This document shows positions 10,572-20,969 of a stretch of DNA of 64,000 bases, piece by piece (the first letter of the stretch is position 1; each line of letters opens with the position of its first letter). Below the pieces are notes generated by a model. That model saw only the letters and a program-made list of their open reading frames with translations, was not told where the DNA came from and ran no database searches. The position numbers and the translations under genes were made by a program. This DNA comes from Bacteroidales bacterium (GTDB lineage: Bacteria > Bacteroidota > Bacteroidia > Bacteroidales > GCA-2748055), in contig JARGFM010000006.1 in NCBI GenBank assembly GCA_029210725.1, forward strand, positions 62,001 through 126,000, read 5' to 3'.

Positions 10572-11888
10572 TCAGACTTCAGGCAGCACCCAGGGTTCCC
10601 GGTAGGTGGGTGTCAGATAGCTGTCTGCTTCCGCATCGTTGATAAACTTGCTCTTTTCTGCATCCCAGTATAATCTTCTGCCTGTCTTAAAGGCCACATT
10701 CCCCAGGTGACAGGTCCGGGCCACGCCTGCGGCAATCTCCACCGGACAGTTCAGCGGTGCACCGTTCTTTATGCCGTCGATAAAATTGGCCATATGGTTT
10801 GAGAGGCCCTTCCCATCTCCCTGGATCAGGTCGATTCTATCCAGGGTGGGCTGACCTCCTTTGGGTTCCGGAATTACCTCCCAGCCGCCGCGGTCCACCA
10901 CCAGCGTACCCTCATTGCCCACAAAACCCACTCCGTGTGAACGGCCGTAATAACCTCCGTCAATCCCGATTCCATGGTCCCAGAGCATGGTGAAATCATC
11001 AAACTCGTAAATGGCCTGAAGGGTATCCGGAGTTTCACAGGCATCTTCCGGATAGGCAAACTTCCCCCCCATGGCCATGACCGACTTAGGGGCATACTTT
11101 TGCATACCGAAAAGTGCATAATCCACGATATGAACCCCCCAGTCGGTCATCATCCCCCCGGCATAGTCCCAGAACCAGCGAAAGGTAAAATGGAACCTGT
11201 TTTTATTAAAGGGCCGCCTGGAAGCAGGACCCAGCCAGAAATCATAATCCACTCCTTCCGGAACCGGCGAATCGGCTACCACGGGAACCGATTTCATCCA
11301 GCCCTGGTAGGACCAGGCACGTACGGTCCTGATTTTCCCCAACTGACCGGAGTGTACATATTTAATCGCATCCTGCCAGTGAGTATCACTGCGCTGCCAC
11401 TGTCCGATCTGCACCACATTTCCATATTTTTGCACCGCCTTCTCCATGATATTGCACTCTTCAATGGTGTTGGCCAGTGGCTTTTCACAATAAATATCAT
11501 AACCTTCCTGCGCTGCATATATAAAAGGTATGGTATGCCAGTGATCCGGGGTGCCTATAATAATGACATCCAGTCCCTTATGCTCCAGCAGATGACGAAA
11601 ATCCTTATAAGCCCTGGGGGCCTTCCCCTGGATCTTCTCCACATCCTTTATCCGCTTATCAAGTACGTTCTGATCCACGTCACAAAGAGCAGCACACTCG
11701 GTATTGGGAAGGTTCAGGAAAGCTCTCAGATCGGAAAAGCCCATTCCATTGACCCCGATCACTCCGCAGACCAGTTTTTCATTGGCACCGAGTATTCCTC
11801 CCTTCAGGGTGGAAAAGGGGGAAGTCATTCCAATTAATGCAGTGGCAGCTGCAGATTTCCTGATAAATTCTCTTCTGTTGGTAGGCAT
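10572..11888 (-). CDS. Gfo/Idh/MocA-family oxidoreductase with Tat signal
   Basis: The 438-residue protein opens with a twin-arginine signal (NRREFIRKSAAATALIG), so it is probably exported folded with its nucleotide cofactor. The Rossmann fold follows (VCGVIGVNGMGFSDLRAF) and the family hallmark EKPLA is present in YDIYCEKPLANTIEE near 130. The C-terminal half contains DYAGGMMTDWGVHIVDYALFG, typical of the exported Bacteroidota subgroup. Such proteins are usually sugar dehydrogenases or retaining glycosidases using NAD. No carbohydrate cluster surrounds it, so its substrate is open. Confidence 0.88.
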   Translation of the reverse strand: MPTNRREFIRKSAAATALIGMTSPFSTLKGGILGANEKLVCGVIGVNGMGFSDLRAFLNLPNTECAALCDVDQNVLDKRIKDVEKIQGKAPRAYKDFRHLLEHKGLDVIIIGTPDHWHTIPFIYAAQEGYDIYCEKPLANTIEECNIMEKAVQKYGNVVQIGQWQRSDTHWQDAIKYVHSGQLGKIRTVRAWSYQGWMKSVPVVADSPVPEGVDYDFWLGPASRRPFNKNRFHFTFRWFWDYAGGMMTDWGVHIVDYALFGMQKYAPKSVMAMGGKFAYPEDACETPDTLQAIYEFDDFTMLWDHGIGIDGGYYGRSHGVGFVGNEGTLVVDRGGWEVIPEPKGGQPTLDRIDLIQGDGKGLSNHMANFIDGIKNGAPLNCPVEIAAGVARTCHLGNVAFKTGRRLYWDAEKSKFINDAEADSYLTPTYREPWVLPEV

Positions 11889-11947: not shown

Positions 11948-13537
11948 TTATCTGTTAAGGGGAGCAAAAAGGGAGTTCCCCTGATTAAACTTCCGGTCCA
12001 GCAACAGGTCCACCACCTGCACTCCATTCATCATGGTTCCGTAAAGGCCATGGGAAAACTTGGGCTGATAAAGGTTCTTTATGGGAGTTTTCATGGGCAG
12101 CCGTTTGGGTCCGAACTGCGTGACCAGAGAGGCCATATCATACAGGCTTCCTGTTGGAGATCCCGAATACCTGGCATAGGTCGCCGGTGTGGCAATATCC
12201 TTCACCACCACATGCTTACTAAGATCGGGGATGAAGTACTTCTCAGCAATGCCGATAAAGAAGCCGGCCCATTTTTCCTTCTCCGCCTTGTACCTGGGAT
12301 AATCGCTGTCCCTCCACTCCTTCCACTGTCCCAGGGCAAAGGGGGTACACCGGAGAGTAATCGTATTCTTTGCACCGGTGGTAAGCGAGGGACAGATAAG
12401 CGCCATATGGAAACATTCTTCAGAAAAAGCCTGATCCCCATTCAGATAAGCCTGGAACAACTTTTCGGCAGTGCCCAGTCCGGTCGATACCACGTTGTAT
12501 GGATAATCCAGATCCAGGGTTTTCATATCGATCTTATCGTCCAGTCCCAGGGCCACATTGATGGAGGAGACCGACATTATGGTATTTTTCAGCTTGTCCA
12601 CATAGGCATCCGGCAGATGTTGATCGCCCACCAGGGTGCGCATGGCCAGCATGGGATCAACAGTAGTAATAAGGGTTTCCGCCAGAATGGGTTCCTCCTC
12701 CCCTTTCACCCTGATCCCCCTGGCCACCCCGTTCTCTACCAGGATCTTTTCCACTTCTGCATTAAATAAGATTTCACCCCCGCGTTCCTGGAACAGCAAA
12801 GCCATCCTGGCCGGAAATTCATCGAAAAACCCGTAGGGCCTGAAACAGCGGGTCATGGACGAGAGCATGGCCCCTGTGGCCATGATGGCGGATGCCCGGT
12901 CCGAGGGAACCCCGGAAAAGGAGGTGAAAGTCTCCATCACCTCCCTTAGCTTCGGATTGGTAATCCCGAACTTATCAAGCAGTCCCGAATAGGTTCTGTT
13001 CAGATTTGCCACCACCTTGGGAGCCTGGAAAGGGATCTTTAGTTTATCCTTCAGGGTGGAATTGGCCTTTAATTTGCGAACCTGCCTGAACATATCCACC
13101 GAATAATCCATCAGCGCCCTGATCTTCCGGGCATCATCGGGAAAAAGTTCAACCAGGTAATTTTTAAAATTCTCCGCCCCGGCAGGAATCTTATACTCCT
13201 CTACCTGGTCGCCGCTTACCACCAGCCGGCGCATGAAATCACCCTTATACTGTTTCAGATCCAGGTCAATCTCCAGGTACTCCAGAATATCTATAATATC
13301 GGGAAAGAGCTGAGTGGTCTCAAAAACATAGCCTTCGCGTTCATAGGCCGTACTGTATCCGCCGGGGTAGCTGTTTTTCTCTACAATCAGGGTACGCTTG
13401 CCCTCCGTGTTTTTCTGCCACATCATCCCTGAAGACAGACCGCTCAATCCCGCTCCGATGATCACAAGATCGTATTCCTTAGCCCCGGAATAATTCGACC
13501 TTACACTGTCTCTTTTCAGTTGAATGCTGCTTTTCAT
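11948..13537 (-). CDS. Phytoene-desaturase-like FAD oxidoreductase
   Basis: The 529-residue flavoprotein has a dinucleotide-binding motif (DLVIIGAGLSGLSSG, about 24-38) followed by IVEKNSYPGGYSTAYEREGY, as in the carotenoid isomerase/desaturase and RetSat-like branch. A C-terminal FAD segment lies near PIKNLYQPKF...GLYGTMMNGVQVVD. It is not part of a carotenoid cluster here, so a general isoprenoid or lipid redox role is as likely as carotenoid synthesis. The gene is divergent from mobA, with 74 bp between the two ATG codons. Confidence 0.83.
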   Translation of the reverse strand: MKSSIQLKRDSVRSNYSGAKEYDLVIIGAGLSGLSSGMMWQKNTEGKRTLIVEKNSYPGGYSTAYEREGYVFETTQLFPDIIDILEYLEIDLDLKQYKGDFMRRLVVSGDQVEEYKIPAGAENFKNYLVELFPDDARKIRALMDYSVDMFRQVRKLKANSTLKDKLKIPFQAPKVVANLNRTYSGLLDKFGITNPKLREVMETFTSFSGVPSDRASAIMATGAMLSSMTRCFRPYGFFDEFPARMALLFQERGGEILFNAEVEKILVENGVARGIRVKGEEEPILAETLITTVDPMLAMRTLVGDQHLPDAYVDKLKNTIMSVSSINVALGLDDKIDMKTLDLDYPYNVVSTGLGTAEKLFQAYLNGDQAFSEECFHMALICPSLTTGAKNTITLRCTPFALGQWKEWRDSDYPRYKAEKEKWAGFFIGIAEKYFIPDLSKHVVVKDIATPATYARYSGSPTGSLYDMASLVTQFGPKRLPMKTPIKNLYQPKFSHGLYGTMMNGVQVVDLLLDRKFNQGNSLFAPLNR

Positions 13538-13611
13538 GATACCGGGATTGGAAATTATACCTCTAATTTAGGATAAAGATTTATACCTTGCGTCGGTTTT
13601 CCGTAAGATTC

Positions 13612-14214
13612 ATGAAGACCAGCAGCACAAAAATAACCGGAATCCTTCTGGCAGGTGGAAAGAGCCGGAGAATGGGTGTTGAAAAGGGCACCCTCGTTAT
13701 TGGAGGCGCGCTTCTTTATCAGCACCCCCTGAAGGTGCTGGAAGGGCTCTGTGATGAGATCCTGATCAGCAGCTACAGCGATTCCATTTCCCGGGTTCCT
13801 CACAGGAAAGTCTGTGATGAAATCAAAGGAATTGGTCCCCTGGGGGGGATATTCAGCTGCCTGAAACAGTCATCTTCCGATCTGAACCTGGTGCTCTCCT
13901 ACGACTTGCCCCTGGTCAATGAATCCCTGTTCCGGCTGCTTATCTCTGAAAGAGACCGCTATGATCTGGTGCTGCCGGCCATGCCCGGGAAACAAGCGGA
14001 GCCTCTCTGTGGCCTCTATCACAAAAATGTCCTGGAAGTAATCGGGCAGATGATCAGACAGAAGGATTATAAGGTAAACCATTTGCTGGACCGCTGCCCC
14101 AGCAGGGTGGTCCCGATCACCAGGGATATGAAATGCTGGCAAACCGATCTGTTCCTTAATATTAACAGCAAGGAGGATCTCCAGCGCCTGCCCCCAGGTT
14201 TTAAAACAGATTAA
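13612..14214 (+). CDS. mobA: Molybdenum cofactor guanylyltransferase
   Basis: The 200-residue MobA family protein adds GMP to Mo-molybdopterin to make the guanine dinucleotide cofactor of DMSO-reductase-family enzymes. The nucleotide-binding motif ITGILLAGGKSRRMGVEKG starts at residue 8, and LSYDLPLVNESLF (D-P metal site) lies near 104. I start at ATG 13612 because it places the motif at the normal distance from the N-terminus; a TTG at 13588 is also in frame. It is intact and sits just upstream of the decayed molybdoenzyme locus that it presumably served. Confidence 0.88.
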   Translation: MKTSSTKITGILLAGGKSRRMGVEKGTLVIGGALLYQHPLKVLEGLCDEILISSYSDSISRVPHRKVCDEIKGIGPLGGIFSCLKQSSSDLNLVLSYDLPLVNESLFRLLISERDRYDLVLPAMPGKQAEPLCGLYHKNVLEVIGQMIRQKDYKVNHLLDRCPSRVVPITRDMKCWQTDLFLNINSKEDLQRLPPGFKTD

Positions 14215-14242
14215 GATGAAGAGAGAGATCAATTCCATCTGA

Positions 14243-15403
14243 TTGAAAGCGGCTGTGGCAGGCGGATTATGGGCCAGTTTTGAGATTATAGTGGGGAGTC
14301 TTCTGCACAATTTGCATCTGCCTTTTTCCGGCACCATCCTGGCTACCTTCTCGGTTATCTGGATGATCTCCTTTTTGCAGATCTGGAACGAAACCGGGCT
14401 CATCTGGAGGGCCGGGCTTATCTGTGGATTAATGAAATCTCTTTCCCCCAGTGCCGTGATCCTGGGCCCGATGACCGGAATCATGATGGAGGCCCTGGTC
14501 ATGGAACTGCTCATTTATCTGCTGGGCAGAAATATGTTCGCTTATATCATGGCCGGAATTGCTGCTCTTCTAAGTACCATCATGCATAAACTGGCCAGCC
14601 TTTTTATTCTTTATGGAAACGACCTGGTAAATATTTATGTCAACCTGTTCCGCTTCATCCAAAAACAACTTGGCCTGGAAAATGCGGAATCCAGGGACCT
14701 GATTACCGGAATCATAGTCCTGTATATACTGCTGGGGGCAGCTGCTGCACTTGCTGGCAGCCTCCTGGGCAAAAGAGCCCTGCAAAAACAGAACGCGCCC
14801 GGCTCCGTTCCCAAAGCTTCAGATCCTTTTGTTTCGGCCGGGCAGGAAGCAGATCCAAACCAGGCTTTCCGGATCGTATTGTTGTTTATGCCTGTACTGA
14901 TGATCCCTGGCCTCCTTTTACTGATCAACCGTTTTGGCCTTCAGCTTCAAGCCCTGGTTCCATCCGGACTATACCTGCTTTTCCTGCTCCTGTACTACAA
15001 ACGTATCATTCACCGCCTTAAAAAACCCTTTTTCTGGAGTCAGTTGGTACTGATGACTTTGCTTGCAGGCCTCTTCTGTCATCCTCAGGATGGCAGTAAC
15101 TTCATGATTCAAAACGGTTTTCTGGTAGGTCTGGAGATGAGCCTGCGTGCGGTACTGATCGTATCTGCATTTTCCGGGCTCTCTGTGGAAATCAGAAATC
15201 CAATGGTAACAGGCTACCTCCTGGGATTGGGATTCGGTAAAGCCTATGCAGCCCTGTCGTTGGCTTTCAACTCATTACCGGCCATGCTTGATCGCTCAGC
15301 CAGGCTCTCCAATTTCCTCAGGAAGCACTTCCAGGCATTTTCAGATATGCTTGTGGAGGCTGAAATGTGGATGAACTACTACCAGAAAGAGTTTCAGGAC
15401 TAA
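14243..15403 (+). CDS. Polytopic membrane protein with an in-frame TGA near its N-terminus
   Basis: The reading frame starts naturally at ATG 14216, one base after the mobA stop, reads MKREINSI, meets TGA at 14240-14242 and continues with LKAAVAGGLWASFEIIVGS. The stop probably replaces a Trp codon (TGG to TGA). If translated at all, the protein would start at TTG 14243 (386 residues). About ten hydrophobic segments are visible, with a polar linker rich in Lys, Gln and Pro near 190. I recognise it only as a conserved Bacteroidota membrane protein resembling ECF-type substrate-binding components. Coupling to mobA suggests a link to molybdoenzyme biogenesis, but that is inference. Confidence 0.65.
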   Translation: MKAAVAGGLWASFEIIVGSLLHNLHLPFSGTILATFSVIWMISFLQIWNETGLIWRAGLICGLMKSLSPSAVILGPMTGIMMEALVMELLIYLLGRNMFAYIMAGIAALLSTIMHKLASLFILYGNDLVNIYVNLFRFIQKQLGLENAESRDLITGIIVLYILLGAAAALAGSLLGKRALQKQNAPGSVPKASDPFVSAGQEADPNQAFRIVLLFMPVLMIPGLLLLINRFGLQLQALVPSGLYLLFLLLYYKRIIHRLKKPFFWSQLVLMTLLAGLFCHPQDGSNFMIQNGFLVGLEMSLRAVLIVSAFSGLSVEIRNPMVTGYLLGLGFGKAYAALSLAFNSLPAMLDRSARLSNFLRKHFQAFSDMLVEAEMWMNYYQKEFQD

Positions 15404-15549: not shown

Positions 15550-17518
15550 ATGACTAGCCGAAGAGATTTTATAAGGATTTCTGGTTTGGGCATGGGAGGA
15601 TTGGCCGTAAGTGCATAAAGTTTAGCTGTTTAAAAGAACTTGTCCTCTTCTCCGCCCCAAGGGACCGAACTCAGTATAAATACCGACCGGACGCCCACCA
15701 TTTGCGAAATCTGCTTCTGGAAGTGCGCCGGGTGGGTCTATAAGAACCCGGAAGGAAAGATCTGGAAAGTGGTTGGAAATGAGGAGGATCAGCACAGCAA
15801 CGGTCGCTTATGTCCCCGCGGAACAGGAGGCCCTGGCATGTACTATGACGAGGACCGCCTGAAAAGACCTCTGATCCGTACCGAAGAGAGGGGCAGGACG
15901 ATCTTCCGGGAAGCTTCCTGGGACGAAGCATTTGATTACATAGCCGAAAAAATGAGAGCCATCGCAGAGGAACATGGCCCCGAATGCACCGCATTGCTGA
16001 CCCACGGCTCAGGAGGAAAATACTTCGGAACCCTTTTGAAAGCTTTCGGATCCAACAACATTGCCGCTCCCTCTTATGCACAGTGCCGGGGTCCGCGTGA
16101 AGTGGCCTATCATATGACCTTCGGTGAAGGAGTGGGAAGTCCGGAGAGAATCGACATCCGGGATACCAAATGTCTGGTGCTGATCGGGGCTCACCTGGGT
16201 GAGAACATGCATAACGGACAGGTTCAGGAAATGTCCGATGCCATCAACAAAGGTGCGTCCATTATTACGGTGGATCCCCGTTACAGCATTGCTGCCAGCA
16301 AATCCAAATACTAGCTGCCCATCAAACCGGCCACCGACCTGGCCCTCCTGCTGGCCTGGATCCTGGGGACAACGAGGCGGATTCTATAATCCGGAAACCG
16401 TCACCATTCCCGACTGGCCCCATCCGCCATTCCCGACTCCAAAAAGAACCTGGAGAGATGCCTATCCCGGGAAATACAACCTGGCCTATGAGACCATTGC
16501 TTCGGGGATTTGCGATGCCACCATCCCGGATGTGAACAGGGGCTGCAACTTCAAAGGATGGATCGTGAACGGTACGAATCTGATCAAAACCATTCCCGAT
16601 ACGCCTAAATTGCTAGAGGCCATACAGGCGCTGGAACTGCTGGTCGTGATCGATACCATGCCCATGGCCATAACCGGTTGGGCCGATGTGGTACTCCCCG
16701 AATATACCTACCTGGAGCGTTATGATACGATCCGCGATTCCCCTCACCGCAAGCCGGCCATCGCTCTGCGAATGCCTGCTGCCGATCCTCTCTACAATAC
16801 CAAACCAGCCTACTGGATGGCGAAAGAGTTGGCCAAACGCCTGGGGCTGGAAGATTATTTCAGCTGGAATTCCATCAAAGAGATGCTCGACTGGCAGCTC
16901 AAACAGGCAGGCTCCTCCCTGGAGGAGATGAAGCGCATCGGGGTGAAAACCTTCGAACGCTCTTACGATGATCTCTACAATGATCCGGACCAGGAGGTGG
17001 AGTTCAATACCAATACCGGAAAAATAGAACTCTACAGTACGGAACTGGCTGCCGAGGGATTTGACCCCCTGCCGGTTTATACTCCTCACGAAGAGCCCCC
17101 GCCAGGATATTACCGCCTTAATTACGGACGGGCACCCATGCATACCTTTGGACGGACCGCCAATAATGCGCTCTTAAAAGACCAGATGGATGAGAATACG
17201 GCCTGGATCAATCCGAAGGTGGCCGGTGAATGGGGAATTGAAAACGGACAGTATATCTGGCTGGAGAATCAGGACGGGGTACGCTCCTCCTTTCCCATCC
17301 GGGCACGTGTTACCGAGCGAACCCGCTGGGACAGTGTTTACATGGTACATGGATTCGGGCATACCAATGATAAACTCTCCAGGGCTTATGGCAGGGGGGC
17401 CAGTGATTCGGAGCTGATTACCCGGGTTCATCTGGATCCCATTATGGGAGGGACGGGAATGAGGGGCAATTTTGTCACCTTCAGGTTTGAACCCAAAGAA
17501 GAGGAGGCTGCATCATGA
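15550..17518 (+). pseudogene. psrA: Decayed polysulfide/thiosulfate reductase catalytic subunit
   Basis: A Tat signal (MTSRRDFIRISGLGMGG) starts at ATG 15550 and is followed in the same frame by TAA 15616-15618 and TAA 15631-15633. The frame then encodes a [4Fe-4S] motif (CEICFWKC...LCPRG) and the putative Mo-ligand cysteine in PSYAQCRGPRE. TAG at 16312-16314 interrupts ASKSKY/LPIKPATDLALLLAWI, probably from TGG. Near 16357-16363 the protein jumps to another frame at GSWGQRGGFYNPE; comparison with the family implies that about 80-100 residues were lost. The C-terminal MopB region (LNYGRAPMHTFGRTANN) is intact. With at least four lesions the gene cannot make PsrA/PhsA. It overlaps the next start by 4 bp. 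Confidence 0.88.
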
Positions 17519-18046
17519 GATACGCCATGGCCATAGATACGAAGAAGTGTGTAGGCTGCAGCGACTGCGTGGTTGCCTGTCAGACCGAAAACAAGGTACG
17601 TATCGGGTATTGCCGCGACTGGGTGGTGGAAGTCACAGACGGAACCTACCCCCGGCTGGAGATAGAGATCCGGTCTGAACGCTGCAACCAGTGCGACAAT
17701 GCACCCTGTGTACGCTGCTGCCCCACCGGTGCCAGTCACTATGCCGATGGAGGCATTGTTCTGGTCACTCCCAACAAGTGCATCGGATGCGGGGCCTGCA
17801 TTACCTCCTGTCCTTACGATGCCCGTTATCCGCATCTCGATGGTTATGTGGATAAGTGCATTTTGTATTCACAGGGTTAAAAAGGGACTGGAACCGGCCT
17901 GTGTTGCCGCATGTCCCACCAAATGCATGTATTTTGGAGACCTGGACGATTCCAGGAGTTCCGTTTCAGAGATCCTGAAAGTCCGAAAATATAAAACCCT
18001 GATCCCTGAAGCAGGGACCGATCCCCAGTTGTATTTCCTTATCTAA
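17515..18046 (+). pseudogene. psrB: Frameshifted ferredoxin-like electron-transfer subunit
   Basis: The gene starts at ATG 17515, overlapping the psrA stop. It encodes four [4Fe-4S] cluster motifs: [43 protein letters not shown] and, after the break, [18 protein letters not shown]. At about 17862-17866 the frame shifts. The first frame ends at TAA 17880 after DKCILYSQG, while a second frame continues to TAA 18046. Restoring the CxxC pair in DKC..C needs two extra bases, so a 2-bp deletion is most likely. In PsrB-type proteins these clusters pass electrons from the NrfD quinol site to the Mo subunit. Confidence 0.87.
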
Positions 18047-18053
18047 CAGAACC

Positions 18054-19098
18054 ATGAGAGAAGAGATTATTGTCAGCGGACGCAACAACTACCTGATTGA
18101 TCCCCAGCTGCATATCTGGCACTGGCAGATTCCCCTCTATCTTTTTCTGGGCGGACTGGCCGCAGGGATCCTCTTTTTTGCTGCCTTTTTCACCCTGATG
18201 GGAAAGGAAAACAAGTATCGTGCCGCTGTAAAAATTGCACCGCATATCGTACCCTGGGTATTGATCGCGGGGCTGCTGGCTCTGCTTCTTGACCTGAAAC
18301 ATCAGCTCTATTTCTGGAGATTGTACACCACCATTCGCCTGGAATCGCCCATGTCCTGGGGCGCGTGGGTTCTTATGCTGGTCACCCCATTGTCCTTTAT
18401 CTGGTCGGCCATCCATATCAGGGAGGTCTTTCCCAAATGGGATTGGAAGTATGAAATCATAAAGAATCTGGAGTCCTTTTTTCTTAAACAGAAAATAGCT
18501 ATCGCCTGGGTCATGGCGATAAGTTCCATCATTCTCGGGGTGTATACGGGGATCCTTTTTTCGGCATTGATTCTCCTCGCAGCAAGCTGCGAGGAATCAT
18601 CTATTAATTGTTTATTTTAAATGTGCTCGCTTACCCCGCAGCAGAGCTACGGGGAATGCGCTCGCGTAATTCAACGCCAGACCTCTCTGGAACACTTCGA
18701 TTCTTGGTCCTCTGTTCCTGGCTTCAGGCCTTTCAGCAGGTGCGGCCGTGATTATGCTGTTTTCACAGAAACATAAGGAAAGGAACATGTTTTCCAGGAT
18801 CGATATCGGTATTATTGTGGTGGAGCTCTTCCTGATTATCCATATGTTCATGGGCTTCCTGGCCAGCACCCAGGTACAGATCGAAGCAGCAAAACTTTTC
18901 CTGGGAGGGCCCTGGACAGCCCCCTTCTGGATCTTTGTGGTGATCCTTGGAATGATTGTCCCGGTCATCCTGGAGGTTTTGGAACTGAAAAAATTTAAAA
19001 TTCCTGTGGTGATCCCGGCTACTCTTGTTCTTTTCGGAAGCCTGATGCTGCGTTTTATCATTTCCTTTGCCGGCCAGGAAAGCAGGTGGCTCTATTAA
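18054..19098 (+). pseudogene. psrC: NrfD-like quinol-oxidising membrane subunit, interrupted
   Basis: The frame from ATG 18054 encodes the first five or so membrane helices of an NrfD/PsrC protein (LHIWHWQIPLYLFLGGLAAG, PMSWGAWVLML). It reads into foreign sequence after TGILFSA and stops at 18620. The remainder resumes in another frame at NARPLWNTSILGPLFLASG near 18672 and runs to TAA 19098 (GQESRWLY). The gap is an inserted palindromic element of about 103 bp at 18569-18671, which changes the frame by one. The native protein would have anchored PsrAB in the membrane and oxidised menaquinol. Confidence 0.87.
18569..18671 (+). repeat. REP/BIME-like palindromic element inserted in psrC
   Basis: About 103 bp split the psrC coding sequence. 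The insert contains a perfect hairpin CCTCGCAG-CAAG-CTGCGAGG (18575-18594) and a second, imperfect one CCCCGCAGC-AGAG-CTACGGGG (about 18634-18654). They are separated by AT-rich DNA and flanked by GCTCGC motifs. ATT occurs at both edges (18566-18568 and 18669-18671), a possible 3-bp target duplication. The layout of two GC-rich palindromes and no ORF resembles REP or BIME elements mobilised by IS200-like REP-associated transposases. No such transposase gene lies in the window. Confidence 0.7.
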
Positions 19099-19120
19099 AT
19101 AACTTAATAAACTATCCATA

Positions 19121-19658
19121 ATGAGTGAATCAAATAAACCAAAGACAAAAAGCCGGTACATCAATCCCTACCTGGGGGGGTGTGTTGCTGGGCCTGGTAC
19201 TGATCGCTGCCAACTTTGTTTCGGGCAGGGGCCTGGGTGCCAGTGGCGCTGCCAAAAGCGCTATCGTGGCCTCCGTCAATACGCTGGCACCCGGGCATGC
19301 TGAAAATGCAAAGTTCTACCAGGAATACAACGCTTCGCACACCGAAGGACCCATGAAATCGTGGCTGGTATTTCAGATGCTTGGGGTCATTGTGGGAGCC
19401 TTTCTCTCAGGGGCTGTTTTTAACCGCCTGAAATTCAAAGTGGAACACTCCCCCGGGATCACCTCAAAACGCCGCATCGTTTTTGCCGTCCTTGGAGGGA
19501 TCCTATTTGGGTTTGGATCGCAACTGGGTCGTGGATGCACCAGTGGCTCGGCATTAAGCGGCATGGGCATGCTTTCCCTGGGAGGCTTTATTTCTATGGC
19601 ATTCATTTTTGGAACCGCTTTTGCCCTGGCCTGGTTCTTCAGGAAAAACTGGATTTAA
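19121..19658 (+). pseudogene. YeeE/YedE-family thiosulfate-type transporter, frameshifted at a G7 tract
   Basis: ATG 19121 opens MSESNKPKTKSRYINPYLGG and then meets a run of seven G (19174-19180). With six G the frame would continue as LGGVLLGLVLIAANFVSG; with seven it leaves frame. The rest is well kept: membrane helices and GRGCTSGSALSG with the conserved cysteine that, in YeeE/TsuA, relays thiosulfate through the channel. It ends at 19658. A GTG at 19125 is in frame with the downstream part and could bypass the lesion, so it may be a leaky or phase-variable gene rather than a dead one. Confidence 0.72.
19174..19180 (+). repeat. Homopolymeric G7 tract in a coding sequence
   Basis: Seven consecutive G residues lie 53 bp into the YeeE-like gene. 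Loss of one G restores the conserved reading frame from ATG 19121. The tract is a candidate slipped-strand site or a sequencing-error position. Confidence 0.6.
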
Positions 19659-19677
19659 CCCATTTTATTTCACAATC

Positions 19678-20268
19678 ATGGGACCTTTAATTATTAATGA
19701 TATCATCTCTCAAAACACCAACTTCTTTCTGGCCTTCCTCATAGGAACAGGTTTCGGTTTTATCCTGGAAAGCAGTGGTTTCTCCTCCAGCCGGAAACTG
19801 GCCGGAGTGTTTTACGGTTACGATACGGTTGTACTTAAGGTATTTTTTACTGCGGCTATCGTGGCCATGCTGGGATAGCTGTTTATGAGCCTGTTTAACT
19901 GGATCGACCTGGATATGGTCTATATCAATCCCACCTACCTCTGGTCGACTATCATTGGCGGCGCCATCATGGGCGCTGGTTTCATCACCGGAGGTTTTTG
20001 TCCGGGCACCAGCTTTTGTGCTGCTTCCATCGGGAAAATCGATGCCCTGTTCTTTATTGGCGGATTATTCCTTGGAATACTCATTTTTGCTGAGGCCTAT
20101 CCCCTGCTGGAACCCTTCTACAAAGGTTCCTTCAAAGGAAGCCCCACCCTTCCCCAGGCACTTGGATTGAAAGACAGGGTGGTTGTGCTGGGGATTATCA
20201 TTGTAGCCCTGGGCATGTTCTGGGTGGGGGAATGGGCCGAAAAAAAGTTCTCCCGGGAGGAATATTAG
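19678..20268 (+). pseudogene. Second YeeE/YedE-family transporter half with in-frame TAG
   Basis: The frame from ATG 19678 (MGPLIINDIISQNTNFF) runs through FGFILESSGFSSSRKLAGVFYG, stops at TAG 19876-19878 after AIVAMLG, and continues in the same frame with LFMSLFNWIDLDMVYINPTYL to TAA 20268. The second part has the family cysteine motif GGFCPGTSFCAASIG. One nonsense mutation therefore splits an otherwise preserved protein; a start at ATG 19891 (MSLFNWID) could give only the C-terminal portion. In intact loci the paired YeeE-like proteins bring thiosulfate or related sulfur species into the cell. Confidence 0.8.
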
Positions 20269-20351: not shown

Positions 20352-20969
20352 ATGAAACCAAGAATATTTTTAGCCCTGATTATCGTCCCCCTGGGCCTGA
20401 TCCTGGCCGCCGTTCCGGCCAATACCACACATCCGTATAAACTCTCTCCCCAGGATATGCTGGAGTATTTAAACAGCGGGATGCAGTATTTCTCGCCCGA
20501 TGAAGTGGCACACATGCTGGTCAGCAAAGACCCTTCGCTGGTTCTGATCGATGTCAGAAGTGAAGATGAGTACGATAAATTCCACCTCCCCGGCGCCATC
20601 AATATCCCGCTTGCCTCGCTGCTGGAAGATCAATGGAAGGATTACCTCCACCAGGACCTTCGTTACAATGTGTTTTACTCCAACGGAACGGTCAATTCCA
20701 ACCAGGCCTGGATGCTCACACGGCAACTGGGTTACCAGAATAACTACGTGTTGCAGGGTGGCCTGAATTACTGGGTGGAAACGATTATGAATCCCACTCC
20801 GCCCTCATCCACCAGCCCCGACGAGGAGATTGCCAGGTACGATTTCCGAAAAGGTGCCAGCCAGGCACTCGGCGGAGGAGCCCTTGTGGAAAGCAGCAGT
20901 CAGCCGGCCCCTGATCTTCCAAAGATTGCCCCCCGTCCCGCGAAGAAACGGGTGGAGGGAGGATGCTAA
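20352..20969 (+). CDS. Exported rhodanese-like domain protein lacking the catalytic Cys
   Basis: The 205-residue protein has an N-terminal hydrophobic signal (IFLALIIVPLGLILAAVPA) and a rhodanese fold: VLIDVRSEDEYDKFHLPGAINIP, then VLQGGLNYWVE. In the active-site loop, where sulfurtransferases have CxxGxR after a Tyr, the sequence is FYSNGTVNSNQAW, with Ser in place of Cys. It is thus a non-catalytic sulfur-binding or structural member. A tail rich in Pro and Lys ends in a single cysteine (VEGGC). It is the only gene downstream of psrA in this locus without a visible lesion. Confidence 0.8.
   Translation: MKPRIFLALIIVPLGLILAAVPANTTHPYKLSPQDMLEYLNSGMQYFSPDEVAHMLVSKDPSLVLIDVRSEDEYDKFHLPGAINIPLASLLEDQWKDYLHQDLRYNVFYSNGTVNSNQAWMLTRQLGYQNNYVLQGGLNYWVETIMNPTPPSSTSPDEEIARYDFRKGASQALGGGALVESSSQPAPDLPKIAPRPAKKRVEGGC

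Follow-up and report, generated by a model that had tools for sequence, protein, structure and literature searches.

The window, as we call the whole 64,000-nucleotide stretch of DNA that was analysed, belongs to an uncultured Bacteroidales lineage and contains a row of genes in the order mobA - membrane gene - psrABC - yeeE - yeeE - rhodanese. The Pfam families found at the locus are Molybdopterin/Molydop_binding, Fer4, NrfD (in both halves of its gene), Sulf_transp and Rhodanese. Sulf_transp matches the first YeeE-like gene; in the other it matches the second part, the 65-aa first part having no Pfam match. The features are as follows.

13588..14214, + strand: mobA, a molybdenum cofactor guanylyltransferase-like gene; open, and in a single frame against relatives; matched by NCBIfam MobA models (E 2e-33, under their curated cut-offs)
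14216..15403, + strand: unnamed membrane gene, a predicted fusion of an ECF S-component and an EcfT-like half; a single TGA stop inside the frame, at 14240
15550..17518, + strand: psrA pseudogene (Mo catalytic subunit with leader); three stops (15616, 15631, 16312) and a deletion of ~272 nt at ~16361
17515..18046, + strand: psrB pseudogene (Fe-S subunit); 2-nt deletion at ~17861
18054..19098, + strand: psrC pseudogene (NrfD subunit); net ~103 nt inserted at 18566, splitting the gene, with NrfD matches on both sides
18563..18675, + strand: dispersed ~110-bp palindromic repeat inserted in psrC; recognised from an alignment of its copies
19122..19658, + strand: first YeeE-like (Sulf_transp) pseudogene; 1-nt insertion at ~19174
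19680..20268, + strand: second YeeE-like (Sulf_transp) pseudogene; stop at 19876
20352..20969, + strand: rhodanese-like gene; open frame, intact against relatives; PF00581 E 2e-17

The catalytic subunit adjoins a Fer4 subunit and an NrfD membrane subunit, and the nearest solved structure to PsrA is 2VPW, whose molecule is named thiosulfate reductase and which we take to be the PsrABC polysulfide reductase of Thermus thermophilus. A relative's PsrA aligns to 2VPW with E 1e-197, Cys to Cys at the position of what is presumably the Mo ligand. This Cys and a CX2CX3C motif occur in 24/24 of the relatives' PsrA proteins examined, and no column of these 24 separates MoaC-containing from MoaC-less genomes. 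The PhsA model matched PsrA below its cut-off. By homology, the substrate would be polysulfide or thiosulfate.

Lesions and their age

Codon alignments with intact relatives, together with an alignment of the region, reveal nine separate lesions across six consecutive genes. The first-pass annotation had described independent disruptions in five genes; these lesions stand, but the count rises to six since the damaged membrane gene had been missed. The insertion in psrC can now be identified as a dispersed repeat of the window's own genome, which holds 15 further, longer copies; the repeat is matched in 14/18 genomes of the genus, the window's genome counted among them. An IS200/IS605-type Y1 transposase behind the repeat was considered and rejected, PF01797 having no match in the genome, and Rfam at gathering thresholds found nothing within the window. 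The loss of a cluster Cys from the Fe-S motif of psrB was likewise rejected, as the alignment shows the codons to be kept and only the frame to be shifted. All three Psr subunits are disrupted, so that the locus is the remains of a Psr locus and not a working complex. The pieces at psrA are the only PF00384 matches in a 98.6%-complete genome.

Aligned relatives do not share the disruptions: the same genes are open frames there, several copies being cut at contig ends, and the intact-psrA clusters of relatives in the same genus are 82-91% identical over the C-terminal part of psrA. Outside the locus the comparison covers those places where relatives' contigs overlapped (parts of ~3.2-14.2 and 20.3-29.3 kb), and here the genes align in a single frame; such stops as were counted all fall where a relative's frame starts earlier or ends later, or in an antisense frame. 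Of the window, 93.7% is covered by greedy ORFs, broken genes included. As the neighbouring genes compared are intact, the lesions are a local cluster and not general sequence error, which the first-pass annotation had also held to be unlikely.

The decay is recent. Pooled omega on the window's lineage is 0.059 (profile ~0.045-0.078, interpolated) versus a background of 0.061, and lineage-specific residue changes at conserved positions number 13, fewer than in any of the five intact relatives that have all five genes (17 to 40). Relaxed dN/dS, for which a test had been suggested earlier, is not seen, and since protein-level selection is unrelaxed the loss is very young, in keeping with the earlier view of a recent, gene-by-gene decay. 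The rhodanese-like gene and mobA, both said to be intact, are indeed open, but mobA has a raised omega on this branch (0.334 vs 0.160), the highest of nine genes there, with p 0.01 before correction for nine tests. None of the nine single-gene omega tests passes Bonferroni (mobA 0.010; yeeE2 0.026, in the opposite direction; membrane gene 0.078). The six genes were inactivated only very recently (stops, indels, the inserted dispersed repeat), too recently for protein-level selection to have relaxed measurably. As an instance of recent respiratory gene loss the case is clean but ordinary.

We consider it very improbable that the lesions are artefacts of sequencing, assembly or strain mixing in an organism with an intact locus. 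Nine lesions in ~6 kb without an excess of missense changes might suggest this, as might the finding of 4 stops in the five psr/yeeE genes where ~1.4 are expected from the ~28 extra missense changes that the omega profile permits, and a consensus over strains with differing lesions would look alike. Random error, however, should strike the neighbours as well, and those compared are intact, while base-call errors produce neither a deletion of ~272 nt nor a repeat that has 15 longer copies elsewhere. Continued expression of the interrupted genes by readthrough, re-initiation or recoding is more improbable again. It would agree with the unrelaxed omega and with the in-frame TTG directly after the stop at 14240, from which an N-terminally shortened membrane protein is possible, but psrA lacks ~272 nt, psrB, psrC and the first YeeE-like gene are frameshifted or split, and long frames elsewhere in the window terminate at ordinary stops.

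The membrane gene: predicted fold, distribution and neighbours

The membrane gene has no meaningful sequence match in Pfam, NCBIfam or the PDB. Its predicted structure supports a family in which an ECF S-component is joined to an EcfT-like half. The N-terminal half (model pLDDT 76) aligns to 5EDL with Z 13.3 over 163 residues at rmsd 3.3; the PDB title of 5EDL says S-component, and we take it to be YkoE, presumably of the vitamin type. The second S-component in the list is RibU at Z 6.9, not far above an unrelated protein at 6.0. Foldseek ranked 5EDL 22nd for this half (E 0.11, probability 1.00) and gave no match with E < 0.001 for either half. For the C-terminal half the best eight matches are all EcfT, a single family, at Z 6.9-7.9, the next being at 4.6; for helical proteins, Z values below 8 are weak. 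The EcfT alignment spans residues 1-131 of 183 and leaves the coupling helices uncovered. In the match list for the whole model, unrelated membrane proteins appear below rank 2. A motif scan of 36 neighbourhoods for EcfA found ABC ATPases in 3, all MlaF-like. A cognate EcfA upstream of mobA in G018, G023 and G040 was considered and rejected: of many ABC models, MlaF is the one that the ATPase matches, and in G040 the adjacent permease is MlaE.

The distribution of the gene was examined in 39 relatives that were at least 90% complete, chosen by completeness alone and including one (G012) at 8% contamination; the relatives' genomes are mostly in tens to hundreds of contigs. The Moco pathway was scored by MoaC and MoeA, with MoaA in the genus only. 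A bis-MGD enzyme of the Psr, Nar, Dms or Fdh type is present in 20/39, and among these 11 have the putative transporter without MoaC, 7 have both, 2 have MoaC only and none has neither. Fifteen of the 19 relatives without such an enzyme have neither MoaC nor the transporter; outside the genus, absence of the enzyme rests on the psrA query, which could miss divergent enzymes. In MoaC-less genomes the transporter gene accompanies the enzyme in 11/11 cases versus 1/16 without it (Fisher 9e-7, relatedness ignored), or 8/8 versus 1/16 when collapsed by genus (Fisher 1.2e-5). The single exception, G038, has the transporter gene and no detected bis-MGD enzyme. The transporter-without-MoaC pattern spans eight genera and five families of the order, and 9/11 of these genomes also lack MoeA, where incompleteness alone predicts 0.46/9. 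G017, among the 11, carries a NarG that exceeds the family cut-off and not Psr, which ties the gene to molybdoenzymes and not to Psr; the raw association of psr with MoaC is nil (p = 1.0).

A strict replacement, with the transporter exactly where MoaC is absent, was rejected, since 7/20 of the well-assembled enzyme genomes have both. Five genomes under 90% complete have the enzyme without MoaC or transporter (G004, G010, G027, G035, G043); G016 has a fragment of the gene at a contig end and G048 a copy on another contig. The enzyme was counted from weak psrA matches in five genomes (G010, G050, G052, G053, G058) and by PF00384 only in G017. NCBIfam models applied to five of these six gave, besides the NarG of G017, a DmsA-type protein over the cut-off in G058, Fdh-alpha over the cut-off in G052 and just under it, in a partial frame, in G053, and a DmsA/Fdh-like protein below cut-off in G050; G010 rests on PF00384 at 263 bits. 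Next to a xanthine-dehydrogenase-type enzyme, the window's own genome has a Moco synthesis operon. The one bis-MGD enzyme detected in this genome is broken, which leaves the transporter gene and mobA without a known client.

MobA is a neighbour of the gene in 15/30 of the loci obtained from the transporter search itself. A wider count of 39 loci includes nine from the psrA search, and thus favours psr neighbours; one of its MobA seeds is the MocA/MobA-like protein of G052. In this set 26/39 loci have a THEP1-like NTPase, either adjacent or fused, and both NTPase-transporter and NTPase-MobA fusions were found. The Mo partners vary from locus to locus: MobA before or after the gene, a MocA/MobA-like transferase, MoeA-MogA (in a MoaC-less genome with a transporter-MoeA-MogA row) or DMSO-reductase genes. 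TonB receptors are common in this phylum, so that their occurrence as neighbours in 5/39 loci is only suggestive; in one (L172) a TonB receptor, transporter/NTPase, MobA and psr stand in one row. No Mo-related or TonB neighbour lies on the same strand within two genes in 9/39 loci.

Possible substrate of the predicted transporter

From these associations we infer that the membrane protein may import molybdopterin or a close precursor in the relatives. The protein would take up molybdopterin, Mo-molybdopterin or a close precursor, MobA would add GMP to it, and PsrA or some other bis-MGD enzyme would then receive the cofactor; genomes without MoaA, MoaC and MoeA could in this way still run a molybdoenzyme. 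The THEP1-like NTPase, whether fused or encoded nearby, is probably part of the route, as is the TonB receptor at some loci. An explanation that joins the very recent six-gene decay, the S-T family and import of molybdopterin, Mo-molybdopterin or a precursor in relatives seems to us evenly poised between right and wrong. More tentative is the fuller picture of a dedicated bacterial route for the uptake of Moco or molybdopterin: a TonB-dependent receptor in some species, an ECF importer with S and T in a single chain and in many cases a THEP1-like NTPase fused to it, and MobA to convert what is imported. Organisms whose enzymes are of the Psr, Nar or DMSO-reductase type could then be Moco auxotrophs, living on cofactor that their neighbours make, and the window's species, which kept de novo synthesis beside another enzyme, would be discarding this route along with its Psr. 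A point against import is that Moco has been described as unstable and oxidation-sensitive in the part of PMC9793310 cited here. Other points against it are that the neighbourhoods scanned showed no EcfA, that seven well-assembled genomes have MoaC as well as the transporter, that 9/39 loci have no Mo-related or TonB neighbour, and that G038 has the transporter gene.

ECF transporters for metal ions are known, and the protein could instead import molybdate, tungstate or a Mo chelate, the missing Moco genes being divergent or in assembly gaps. This would account for the way the gene tracks molybdoenzymes (26/33 relatives with one versus 3/27 without, of 60) and for the proteins matching the ModE repressor domain, below cut-off, near the gene in two genomes. 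We nevertheless judge it unlikely, if a serious contender: all nine genomes at least 90% complete that have enzyme and transporter and lack both MoaC and MoeA would have to hide the pathway, MoaC scored 173-185 bits wherever found, the nearest solved S-component is presumably of the vitamin type, and the commonest partner, MobA, acts after pterin synthesis. Less likely still is import of some other vitamin or pterin needed by anaerobic respirers, with the co-occurrence with MoaC absence due to lineage history. The YkoE-like fold and the 9/39 loci devoid of Mo-related or TonB neighbours would suit such a substrate, but the pattern's spread over eight genera and five families and the varied Mo partners in differing orders argue against it.

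If the cofactor import reading is true, anaerobic communities would share Moco much as they share B12 and other vitamins, and a molybdoenzyme gene would no longer imply self-sufficiency for Moco.

Comparison with known systems

The broken row shares with PsrABC (2VPW) and PhsABC a Mo subunit followed by Fe-S and NrfD subunits; it differs in that all three subunits are broken and in having in addition two YeeE-like genes, a rhodanese, mobA and the predicted transporter. With ECF transporters the membrane protein appears to share the S-component fold of YkoE (5EDL) in its N-terminal half, and the membrane part of its C-terminal half may resemble EcfT (4HZU_T, 4HUQ_T, 4RFS_T and others). The family differs in joining the predicted S and T in one chain, in having no sequence-family match, in its frequent THEP1-like NTPase and in the absence of EcfA from the neighbourhoods scanned.

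None of the matches listed in open-access full text describes a bacterial Moco importer. In the text available, one paper suggests a possible role for some T11SS proteins in the uptake of cobalamin or molybdopterin, and a 'molybdopterin import cluster' is named, with no further detail, in one genome report. The use of dietary Moco by C. elegans shares with the proposed route a reliance on externally made Moco, but concerns an animal, and the portion of that report cited here calls the crossing of membranes an unknown mechanism (PMC9793310). The relatives also resemble the genomes with 'orphan molybdoproteins' reported in 2018: Table 2 of PMC6147048 gives 292 bacteria without nitrogenase that likewise have molybdoenzymes without complete Moco biosynthesis, the orphans being mostly of the DMSOR and XO families. 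In the sections cited, that study offers no importer and suggests new biosynthetic components or Mo-independent forms. Import of the cofactor would explain such genomes, for which the S-T family provides a concrete candidate answer, with a gene, partners and a predicted fold.

Lesions in the psr locus and the age of the loss

Between 13.6 and 21.0 kb of the window, the genes run in the order mobA (assigned by an NCBIfam match whose score lies below the cut-off), a membrane gene, psrA, psrB, psrC (NrfD), two YeeE-like Sulf_transp genes and a rhodanese gene. Several relatives in the genus have an identical gene order with open frames. The closest named relatives of the window's genome (3.81 Mb in 70 contigs, rated 98.6% complete; the window lies on contig C6) are uncultured Bacteroidales/Bacteroidota assemblies. 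Codon alignment against intact relatives placed nine lesions in six genes:

Membrane gene (14216-15403): stop at 14240
psrA: stops at 15616, 15631 and 16312, and a deletion of ~272 nt
psrB: 2-nt deletion
psrC: net insertion of ~103 nt
First YeeE gene: 1-nt insertion
Second YeeE gene: one stop

The first-pass annotation was correct that the locus is decaying, and all five genes it named as broken are disrupted, but it missed a sixth, the upstream membrane gene. Translation of this gene could restart at an in-frame TTG straight after the stop. The frames of mobA and the rhodanese gene are open, as had been read, and the other genes of the window, almost all described as intact, proved so wherever a gene outside the locus could be compared with a relative's copy, a set covering little to the right of 29.3 kb. 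Two further genes, both named by eye, lie upstream: a FAD-dependent desaturase-like gene (11951-13537), which adjoins mobA in loci L276, L279, L280, L041 and L281 of the genus, and a Gfo/Idh-like gene (10575-11888), near mobA in L276, L279, L280 and L041.

What interrupts psrC (18563-18675) is a palindromic repeat of ~110 bp that is dispersed through the genome, where 15 other, longer copies lie on contigs C2-C8, C13, C15, C18, C19 and C29. Within the genus, 14 of 18 genomes, the window's own included, have matches to it. Full-length copies sit after TTGAA (minus strand), a motif present at the insertion site in the uninterrupted psrC of relatives. This siting resembles the target choice of IS200/IS605 elements. 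A search of the genome for a Y1 transposase found none, and the repeat would be a non-autonomous element.

Relaxed dN/dS had been suggested as a sign of decay. A two-ratio codon model over the five psr/yeeE genes gave no relaxation, with omega at 0.059 in the window lineage versus 0.061 in the background (2dlnL crosses 3.84 near 0.045 and 0.078, interpolated); including the membrane gene, the values were 0.076 and 0.068. At sites where all the other sequences agree, the window lineage carries 13 private residue changes in the five genes; the counts for the five intact relatives with the full set of five genes range from 17 to 40. The loss is thus recent, as had been proposed, since omega remains at background level and private changes are few. 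The four stops in these five genes somewhat exceed the upper bound of about 1.4 allowed by the missense load (arithmetic from the omega profile), a surplus compatible with selected inactivation or with a consensus over strains. Taken alone, the decay is an ordinary case of a respiratory gene cluster recently lost.

Molybdoenzymes and cofactor synthesis

Two pieces of broken psrA are the sole PF00384 (Molybdopterin family) matches in the genome. Contig C8 carries MoeA, MoaA, MoaC and a protein that combines MOSC- and MogA/MoaB-like parts; beside them lie a 2Fe-2S protein and a MoCoBD member of the xanthine dehydrogenase family (L232, 4433-11228). The species thus probably still uses molybdenum, though not for PsrA. 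At 266 aa, the MoaA of this locus is short, and its match to PF06463 is weak.

Among 61 genomes, MoaC was found in 15 and MoeA in 17; MoaA, searched within the genus, occurs in 5 of 18 genomes, the identical set to MoaC. Many genomes with intact psrA lack MoaC and MoeA, and MoaA where searched. With completeness of 90% or more required, 39 relatives remain, and 20 of them encode a bis-MGD enzyme, psrA-like or of NarG, DmsA or Fdh type. Eleven of these 20 lack MoaC and nine of the 11 also lack MoeA, versus 0.46 of these nine predicted from incompleteness. PsrA is not degenerate in the MoaC-less genomes, because the Mo-ligand Cys is kept in all 24 proteins examined and no alignment column separates genomes with MoaC from those without. 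In G053, a relative, the formate dehydrogenase frame (L284, 977-2614) begins at position 130 of the 672 in the profile, right at the stop that closes the preceding frame; readthrough of TGA may make the enzyme a selenoprotein.

Fold and neighbours of the membrane protein family

A fusion of ECF S- and T-components was first suspected from the sequence. No Pfam or NCBIfam model gave a meaningful score, and no PDB entry matched by sequence. When a relative's protein was modelled (pLDDT 76, pTM 0.68), residues 4-193 best matched the ECF S-component YkoE (5EDL, Z 13.3), followed by the S-component RibU (Z 6.9) and an unrelated receptor (Z 6.0). With the C-terminal half predicted alone (pLDDT 74.5), the best eight matches were all EcfT chains (Z 6.9-7.9, modest for helical proteins, the eight representing one family); unrelated proteins followed at Z 4.6 and less. 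An S-T fusion is the best reading of these predictions, because an S-component stands in front of an EcfT-like half. Of 42 invariant columns in alignment A1, 32 belong to roughly the first 193 residues, and the C-terminal half holds the other 10.

The family is present in 30 of the 61 genomes. Among the 39 more complete relatives, it occurs in 18 of 20 with a bis-MGD enzyme versus 2 of 19 without, and every enzyme-bearing genome has MoaC or the transporter. Where MoaC is absent, the counts are 11 of 11 with the enzyme versus 1 of 16 without (8/8 versus 1/16 when collapsed to genera). One of the 11, G017, has NarG and not Psr, and its MobA adjoins the transporter. A simple exchange of MoaC for the transporter is countered by seven enzyme-bearing genomes that have both.

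Within two genes on the transporter strand, 39 loci contain MobA (18), PsrA (16), a TonB receptor (5) or DUF364 (4), and nine have no Mo-related or TonB neighbour. An NTPase_1 domain is fused or adjacent in 26, and fused to the transporter in 22. Restricting the count to the 30 loci recovered with the transporter as query leaves 15 with a nearby MobA and four with a TonB receptor; in a set of 80 loci, the stretch retrieved contained the transporter in 15. Upstream of psrA, a THEP1-like NTPase (PF03266), the one joined to the transporter in other loci, is fused to a MobA domain in L122 (4331-5464) and L105 (5460-6668). A TonB receptor, transporter-NTPase, MobA and psr genes succeed one another in L172, and the MoaC-less genome G046 has a TonB receptor, DUF364, transporter-NTPase, MoeA and MogA in a row. 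In four genomes (L265, L266, L267, L273), the gene immediately before the transporter encodes a DUF364 protein (putative heavy-metal chelation). No EcfA was found near the transporter; a motif scan of 36 neighbourhoods detected ABC ATPases in three, all MlaF-like. One such ATPase is upstream of mobA and the transporter in L048, L218 and L220 (three genomes, two genera), with an MlaE permease beside it in L048, where the permease was tested.

A possible source of cofactor

Most simply, the S-T protein would import molybdopterin, Mo-molybdopterin or a close precursor, because it has a predicted S-component fold, is tied to MobA and is present where a molybdoenzyme occurs without pterin synthesis. 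The decay and the association are observed and the fold is predicted, whereas we infer the substrate, an energising ATPase and roles for the NTPase and the receptor; other substrates, foremost molybdate, are possible. No bacterial Moco importer is described among the literature matches listed. Uptake of dietary Moco is reported for a nematode, the mechanism being called unknown there (PMC9793310). Genomes like those of the MoaC-less relatives, with 'orphan molybdoproteins', were reported in 2018, the explanation being left open (PMC6147048). The sixth gene of the decayed locus leads to a transporter family that could explain where such bacteria get their cofactor.
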